From Gammaproteobacteria bacterium (lineage in GTDB: Bacteria; Pseudomonadota; Gammaproteobacteria; UWMA-0217), in assembly GCA_026981985.1 (NCBI GenBank), contig JALSHZ010000121.1, forward strand, positions 81,168-135,553: a stretch of DNA of 54,386 nucleotides. Reading direction: 5' to 3'. A program made the position numbers and the translations under genes. Under the pieces are notes generated by a model, which saw only the letters and a list, made by a program, of their open reading frames with translations, searched no databases and was not told the origin of the DNA. Positions 29,580 to 29,985 of the stretch are shown here, piece after piece; the stretch's first letter is position 1, and every line of letters starts with the position of its first letter.

Positions 29580-29650
29580 TGGCGGAGAGGGAGGGATGGA
29601 TTCGCGGCGTCCTGCCGCTCACCCCTACGGGGCGCTGCGCGTCCAAAATC
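29580..29650 (-). repeat. tRNA-Ser 3'-end repeat, unit A
   Basis: About 71 bp that begins, on the + strand, with TGGCGGAGAGGGAGGGAT, identical to the last 18 nt of the tRNA-Ser gene including CCA. It continues with a structured segment containing GCGGC GTCCT GCCGC and CCCCTACGGGG hairpins. It matches unit B at about 68 of 71 positions. Unit A starts 179 bp from unit B. Confidence 0.85.
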
Positions 29651-29717
29651 GTTCCCGACGATTTTGTCGAACCCTCTGATCGGGTTCAAATCCCTTCCGG
29701 CAAGCTGTACCGCGCAT

Positions 29718-29747
29718 AAAAAACCCGAGCGGGATTTGCTGCTCGGG
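29718..29747 (-). terminator. Terminator-like hairpin between repeat units A and B
   Basis: CCCGAGC (29724-29730) pairs with GCTCGGG (29741-29747), followed leftward by a run of six T on the reverse strand (A-run 29718-29723). Its stem sequence is shared with the other two hairpins of the array. Confidence 0.75.
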
Positions 29748-29758
29748 CTTCGAATTAG

Positions 29759-29828
29759 TGGCGGAGAGGGAGGGATGGATTCGCGGCGTCCTGCCGCTCA
29801 CCCCTGCGGGGCGCTGCGCGCTCAAAAT
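29759..29828 (-). repeat. tRNA-Ser 3'-end repeat, unit B
   Basis: A second copy of the repeat, again opening with the exact 18-nt tRNA-Ser 3' end. It differs from unit A by one A/G change and two adjacent changes near the far end (CGTCC versus CGCTC). It starts 137 bp from the 3' end of the tRNA itself. Read leftward, it precedes the hairpin at 29718-29747. Confidence 0.85.
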
Positions 29829-29851
29829 CCCTCCTGCCAAACCTCGCCGCG

Positions 29852-29884
29852 AAAAAAAAGCCCGAGCAAGTTCCCCTTTTCGGG
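29852..29884 (-). terminator. Terminator-like hairpin directly downstream of tRNA-Ser
   Basis: CCCGA (29861-29865) and TCGGG (29880-29884) with possible G-U extension, followed leftward by eight T on the reverse strand (A-run 29852-29859). The stem is shorter and the loop longer than in the two distal copies, so read-through into the repeats is plausible. Confidence 0.65.
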
Positions 29885-29895
29885 TTTCGAATTAG

Positions 29896-29985
29896 TGGCG
29901 GAGAGGGAGGGATTCGAACCCTCGGTGGGCGCGAGCCCACAACGGTTTTCGAGACCGTCCCGTTCGGCCGCTCCGGCACCTCTCC
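29896..29985 (-). tRNA. tRNA-Ser (anticodon CGA)
   Basis: A 90-nt gene with encoded CCA. Acceptor stem GGAGAGG/CCTCTCC with discriminator G, anticodon stem ACGGT/ACCGT around loop CTCGAAA (anticodon CGA, reads UCG), a long variable arm (GTGGGCTCGCGCCCAC) typical of class II tRNA-Ser, and T arm GAGGGTTCGAATCCCTC. It closely resembles E. coli serU. The gene lies 23 bp from the stop of the GTPase gene upstream. Confidence 0.97.

Follow-up and report, generated by a model that had tools for sequence, protein, structure and literature searches.

What are partial tRNA copies doing behind an intact serine tRNA gene, and how do they relate to the E. coli tyrT repeats, a long-standing unexplained oddity? 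RtT itself is known already and is annotated in E. coli. Here, we examine a tandem array in a window of 54,386 nucleotides (the whole stretch of gammaproteobacterial DNA analysed, from contig JALSHZ010000121.1), and ask which of its parts are copied from the neighboring tRNA, which are shared with other loci, and which may have moved.

An array of tRNA 3'-end copies behind tRNA-Ser(CGA)

ARAGORN finds one tRNA gene in the window, tRNA-Ser(CGA), followed on the same strand by the features below, given in transcript order with scores from two covariance models, R1 for the unit and R2 for the core only.

29896-29985, minus strand: tRNA-Ser(CGA), the host RNA gene and source of the copied 3' end (ARAGORN; Rfam tRNA 54.8 bits)
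29852-29884, minus strand: terminator-like hairpin with imperfect stem and T-run, directly 3' of the tRNA (sequence reading)
29759-29836, minus strand: RtT unit 1, a deletion form without the two hairpins P2/P3, with the tRNA 3' end and CCA at its end (R1 42.9 bits)
29718-29748, minus strand: terminator-like hairpin 3' of unit 1, CCCGAGC...GCTCGGG and then a T-run (sequence reading)
29580-29700, minus strand: RtT unit 2, complete, with inverted T-arm copy, GGGTTCG, core, and tRNA 3' end with CCA (R1 91.8 bits, E 2.8e-19; Rfam RtT 28.4 bits over 29580-29712, model positions 1-130)
29599-29668, minus strand: core of unit 2 with hairpins P3-P6, which recurs in other hosts (R2 60.1 bits, E 1.5e-9)
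29529-29569, minus strand: terminator-like hairpin 3' of unit 2 (sequence reading)

Because tRNA-Ser(CGA) lies on the minus strand, the tRNA 3' end with its CCA closes each unit and is followed by a terminator-like hairpin, so that a transcript would run through tRNA, hairpin, unit 1, hairpin with T-run, unit 2, and third hairpin. An earlier note, made from the sequence alone, correctly placed a tRNA end in each unit but had the units open with it, whereas in transcript order it comes last. The tandem copies that the note described are real: the 18-mer TGGCGGAGAGGGAGGGAT, which takes in the CCA, occurs three times in the window (in the tRNA, at 29580, and at 29759) and never on the other strand, and in the minus-strand reading the last 18 nt of tRNA-Ser(CGA), ATCCCTCCCTCTCCGCCA, close both units. 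Its figure of about 96% identity over 71 bp also holds (68 of 71 bases, 95.8%), as do the 179-bp spacing and, by sequence reading, the terminator-like hairpin with each unit, while independent repeat detection returns a 112-nt direct repeat at 85% in the array. The E. coli K-12 spacing is 178/178, as the note stated; since the family's 51 measured spacings span 123 to 255, the closeness of 178 and 179 is not telling by itself, and we do not argue kinship from spacing. The gene immediately downstream of the array (28231-29454, minus strand) encodes an S-adenosylmethionine synthetase of the AdoMet_Synthase type (PF01941), known as the archaeal-type enzyme.

The array has relatives in its own genome. 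A search with its sequence identifies further arrays behind tRNA-Ser(GGA) (three units), tRNA-Ser(GCT) (two), and tRNA-Arg(CCG) (three), whose tails are the local tRNA's own end, exactly in most serine units and closely in the arginine units (unit tails CCCTCGCTCTCCGCCA at Ser(GCT) and CTCTCGGGCGCACC at Arg(CCG)), and whose interior sequence is common to the serine and arginine arrays. Another RtT-like unit (C88, L040:169-280) stands behind a 5S rRNA gene and has a tail that copies the 5S 3' end, apparently twice. The earlier note had proposed looking for the unit behind other tRNA genes, and it is present there both in this genome and widely in relatives; in five genomes of the window's own family the copy number is 11, 2, 1, 0, and 11.

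Membership in the RtT family, local tails, and a structured core

The Rfam RtT model (RF00391, gathering score 45) aligns to the window array over model positions 1-130 with an E-value of 0.0014 on 401 bases, and over the same positions to the complete units at Ser(CGA), Ser(GGA), and Ser(GCT) with 26-28 bits, all under the cut-off. Its matches cover 26 of 143 gammaproteobacterial genomes, and E. coli is the sole match in a control set of 14. The covariance model R1, built from 22 units of which none is from E. coli, recovers all four MG1655 tyrT/tyrV repeats (65.3-69.9 bits, E ~1e-16), one of them within the annotated RttR. Judged by these sequence comparisons, the window units are members of the same family as the E. 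coli tyrT/RtT repeats, a stronger relationship than the resemblance first claimed. R1 matches 116 of 274 genomes of Gammaproteobacteria (~42%) and also genomes of other Pseudomonadota classes; these wide searches scored only about a dozen candidates in each genome, so that counts per genome are lower bounds. An exact core variant occurs in named genera including Thioalkalivibrio, Rhodanobacter, Dyella, Fulvimonas, Nitrococcus, and Idiomarina, and RtT is matched in 4695 of 5426 E. coli genomes; in the whole family, E. coli RttR alone is annotated as an RNA. A position after tRNA-Tyr (tyrT) is not seen in the window's genome, where the units follow Ser, Arg, and 5S genes, and across the class the upstream genes comprise Ser, Gln, Tyr, Arg, Glu, Pro, and Val tRNAs and tmRNA; we read the tyrT location as accidental to the E. 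coli locus rather than as defining RtT. No phage matched the family, and the plasmid matches amount to one Serratia record (L010, NZ_CP042515.1, 4160-8373), a linear 67-kb 'plasmid' with two tRNA-Ser, six RtT units, and a chromosomal-type efflux gene, which is possibly a misassigned chromosomal contig. The literature searched, including searches with core sequence strings and with most subscription journals outside its reach, holds no account of the family beyond enteric bacteria, at other tRNAs, or with its core as a mobile insert.

Unit tails are mostly local. In each of the 20 loci retrieved first, a tRNA or tmRNA lies immediately upstream on the strand of the unit, and nearly all the tails copy that gene's end. 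Among 161 gammaproteobacterial matches, 140 have a same-strand tRNA or tmRNA upstream and 0 have one on the opposite strand only; many of the remainder sit at contig ends. The first unit usually begins 5-80 nt from the upstream gene, and the tail differs from the last 16 nt of that gene by 0-1 mismatches in 106 of the 140. Over all units with a tRNA, the tail matches the local gene in 73% and other genes' ends in 9%. The earlier note's idea of a mechanism that copies tRNA 3' ends is thus upheld insofar as about 15 tRNA kinds, tmRNA, and 5S rRNA have units behind them whose tails in most cases copy the local 3' end, but the part that appears to move is the core.

The unit is predicted to fold with a closing stem formed by the tRNA tail and the 5' inverted T-arm copy, with further hairpins inside, and the 5' inverted strand matches its own tail at 11.1 of 16 positions as against 9.2 of 16 for the tails of other amino acids. 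Within it, the core spans about 75 nt and four hairpins, starting A-C and ending G-A-G/A-T. In 107 aligned core copies, two-sided compensatory cells number 466 as against 113 in shuffles, and the covariation score is 0.497 as against 0.127 (reached in 0 of 500 shuffles), counts that lean towards the structure because the alignment was fitted to it; sliding the partner by 1-3 columns abolishes the covariation. Stem mismatches are G-U more often than A-C (137 as against 70), a mild sign in these alignments that the sense strand acts as RNA.

Cores also resemble one another within genomes. With each tRNA kind of a genome represented by a single core (103 cores from 71 genomes), mean identity is 0.777 between different tRNAs of the same genome, 0.685 for the same tRNA in different genomes, and 0.681 for different tRNAs in different genomes, and none of 1000 label shuffles reaches 0.777. 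Since cores group by genome and not by tRNA kind, the core appears to travel between a genome's tRNA loci while the tails stay local; gene conversion could contribute to this similarity.

The core in other hosts and its core-free sites

Within the window's own family, one genome (G509) carries two cores in a group II intron, where the Rfam D1-D4 models start adjoining the core. Searching the class with the joined flanks identifies a 99% identical intron lacking both cores in another family, and three further intron copies at 86% in a third genome. Both junctions are clean: TGTCTG|core|AAAGG corresponds to the empty TGTCTGAAAGG, and GAACAG|core|AAACCGG to the empty GAACAGGAACCGG. A complete genome (G122) contains at least 30 uninterrupted copies of a 243-bp MITE, a handful of which are split by the core at one point, the empty site reading GCGTCCTG|A(A/G)ATCG. 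Other cores lie in an anticodon loop beside an intact tRNA (GGTCTTG|core|AAAACC), in the D-loop, in the T-loop of complete tRNA copies, and in REP-like palindromes. The usual T-loop case, TTCG|core|AATCC, follows the same G|A rule as the intron and MITE sites, and insertion duplicates no base or one. The array in the window yielded no core-free counterpart. The earlier note had held that a widespread dispersed repeat unrelated to tRNA ends would speak against its reading; because the core also occurs in the introns, MITEs, palindromes, and D- and anticodon loops just described, this is what we find in part, for the core.

Partial 5' copies of tRNA-Ser upstream of the intact tRNA have a core in or near the D-loop (L116:691-789, L118:716-832, L064:1211-1339, and L276:1982-2058). 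In genome G125, an ORF with a ParB/SopB-like helix-turn-helix contains a 72-nt core in frame (L275:1913-2326); the helix-turn-helix match scores 18.6 bits with the 24 core residues and 22.6 bits without them, under the Pfam cut-off in either case. A genome of another class (G333, L167-L172) has a dispersed repeat of ~170-320 bp, often at contig ends, in which the core sits between TGGAGG..CCTCC and a CCGGGGGCGATAATCGCCCCCGG hairpin. The many identical cores within MITEs and introns were probably carried along by those host elements, so the case for the core's own mobility rests on its distinct insertion sites and not on copy number in such elements.

A proposed mobile mini-element and the alternatives to it

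We consider it probable that RtT units are copies of tRNA 3' ends, comprising T-arm, acceptor strand, CCA, and terminator, with a non-autonomous mobile core of ~75 nt inserted into the T-loop at G|A, multiplied by tandem recombination. From the junctions and identities above, we infer that core mobility would be the cause of both the core-free sites and the similarity of cores within genomes. The core would insert cleanly at G|A, as seen in introns and a MITE and as we suppose for tRNA T-loops; its copies would survive beside an intact tRNA, because insertion into the only tRNA copy would presumably destroy that tRNA; and tandem growth would proceed by recombination between units, as the arrays and a one-copy difference between Salmonella strains suggest. 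If read-through transcribes the units, an RttR-like RNA ending in CCA would probably be freed by tRNA-processing enzymes, an expectation drawn from RttR itself and from the CCA-ended closing stem. Core insertion alone, however, does not account for the inverted T-arm sequence on the 5' side of units at tRNAs. We suppose that this sequence arose when the T-arm was copied in fold-back fashion, and that its pairing with the tail preserved it.

Among candidate mobilising enzymes, Y1_Tnp alone was tested, and neither such an enzyme nor an autonomous partner was found. Genes for Y1 transposases occur in most core-bearing genomes, but three of these genomes that are rated 100% complete (G119, G054, and G013) have none, and we reject a Y1/RAYT transposase as an obligatory partner. 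In the window's genome, the contigs that bear such genes have no cores. A general preference of the core for hairpin loops is not supported, as 5-8 of 21 joined sites, mostly outside T-loops, compare with a background of 22-24%. A broader proposal, that the RtT core represents a class of mobile mini-element absent from the literature searched, which has structured RNA genes and palindromes as its targets in Gammaproteobacteria and in other Pseudomonadota and moves possibly by a single-strand or RNA-level route, and of which the E. coli tyrT repeats are one fossil colony, seems to us an even wager.

The units might instead be old, vertically inherited sRNA genes that coevolve with the upstream tRNA and undergo occasional gene conversion, the intron and MITE copies being rare captures. 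RttR, an annotated RNA carried by the great majority of E. coli genomes, fits this account, as do the covarying stems, the excess of G-U over A-C expected if the sense strand folds as RNA, and the better fit of the 5' strand to its own tail. Vertical descent is nonetheless hard to reconcile with cores that group by genome and not by tRNA kind, with clean core-only insertions that have core-free counterparts in unrelated hosts, and with copy numbers from 0 to 11 inside the window's own family, and we regard it as unlikely. We attach far less weight to an origin in the att-site remnants of tiny islands, in which a tyrosine recombinase acting at tRNA 3' ends would duplicate the tRNA end each time: although tRNA 3'-end copies beside an intact gene are a known trace of integration (PMC9897764) and tandem units resemble repeated att sites, the sequence common to the units lies inside the T-arm copy and not between two att copies, the five proteins scanned that are encoded around the window array include no integrase, and core-only insertions, into introns, MITEs, and D- and anticodon loops without a tRNA 3' end, largely refute it. 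The earlier note also raised an independent origin, that is, a tandem duplication of the tRNA-Ser 3' end unrelated to tyrT/rtT. The different tRNA and the Rfam score below cut-off would suit such an event, but this idea is refuted by the recovery of E. coli units by R1 and by core covariation, and the full-length RtT alignment and the occurrence of one shared core behind many tRNAs as well as in other hosts also argue against it; we give it practically no credence.

Placing the tyrT repeats in a class-wide family with a cleanly inserted core turns the question of what rtT is for into a testable one about a mobile element that has tRNA genes as its home. The mobile-element reading also accounts for partial tRNA copies in annotations. 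Natural presence/absence sets are at hand, including the 731 of 5426 E. coli genomes without a match, and the exact insertion sites provide starting points in the hunt for the enzyme.

Set beside known systems, the units share partial tRNA copies next to an intact tRNA with the att duplications of integrative elements (PMC9897764), but span ~180 bp without genes, have their core inside a T-loop, and also occur outside tRNAs. Rickettsia palindromic elements (RPE) and REP/MITE palindromes are likewise small, structured, non-autonomous inserts that invade palindromes and, as here at one locus (L275), an ORF (PMC3733652). The core differs from them in its hosts and sequence, shows no terminal inverted repeats, and survives mainly in tRNA 3' copies; among 206 cores, GTAG occurs in 35 as against 50 in shuffles and CGTC in 49 as against 39, so that the end tag of REPs is lacking and we reject REP membership. 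The closest likeness is to E. coli RtT/RttR, which has the same inverted T-arm/acceptor segment, GGTTCGA, hairpins with GCCCGNAGGGC and GAGTAATCC, tRNA 3' end with CCA, and tandem spacing of about 178, and of which Salmonella Paratyphi A strains differ by one tandem copy (PMC2658671). The arrays described here stand behind Ser and Arg tRNAs and 5S rather than tyrT, and their core differs in sequence, with an AAAATCG..CGATTTT hairpin and an Rfam score below cut-off. Descriptions of E. coli RtT link it to tyrT and do not treat it as mobile, whereas we propose that it carries one form of a core that has probably moved among many hosts.
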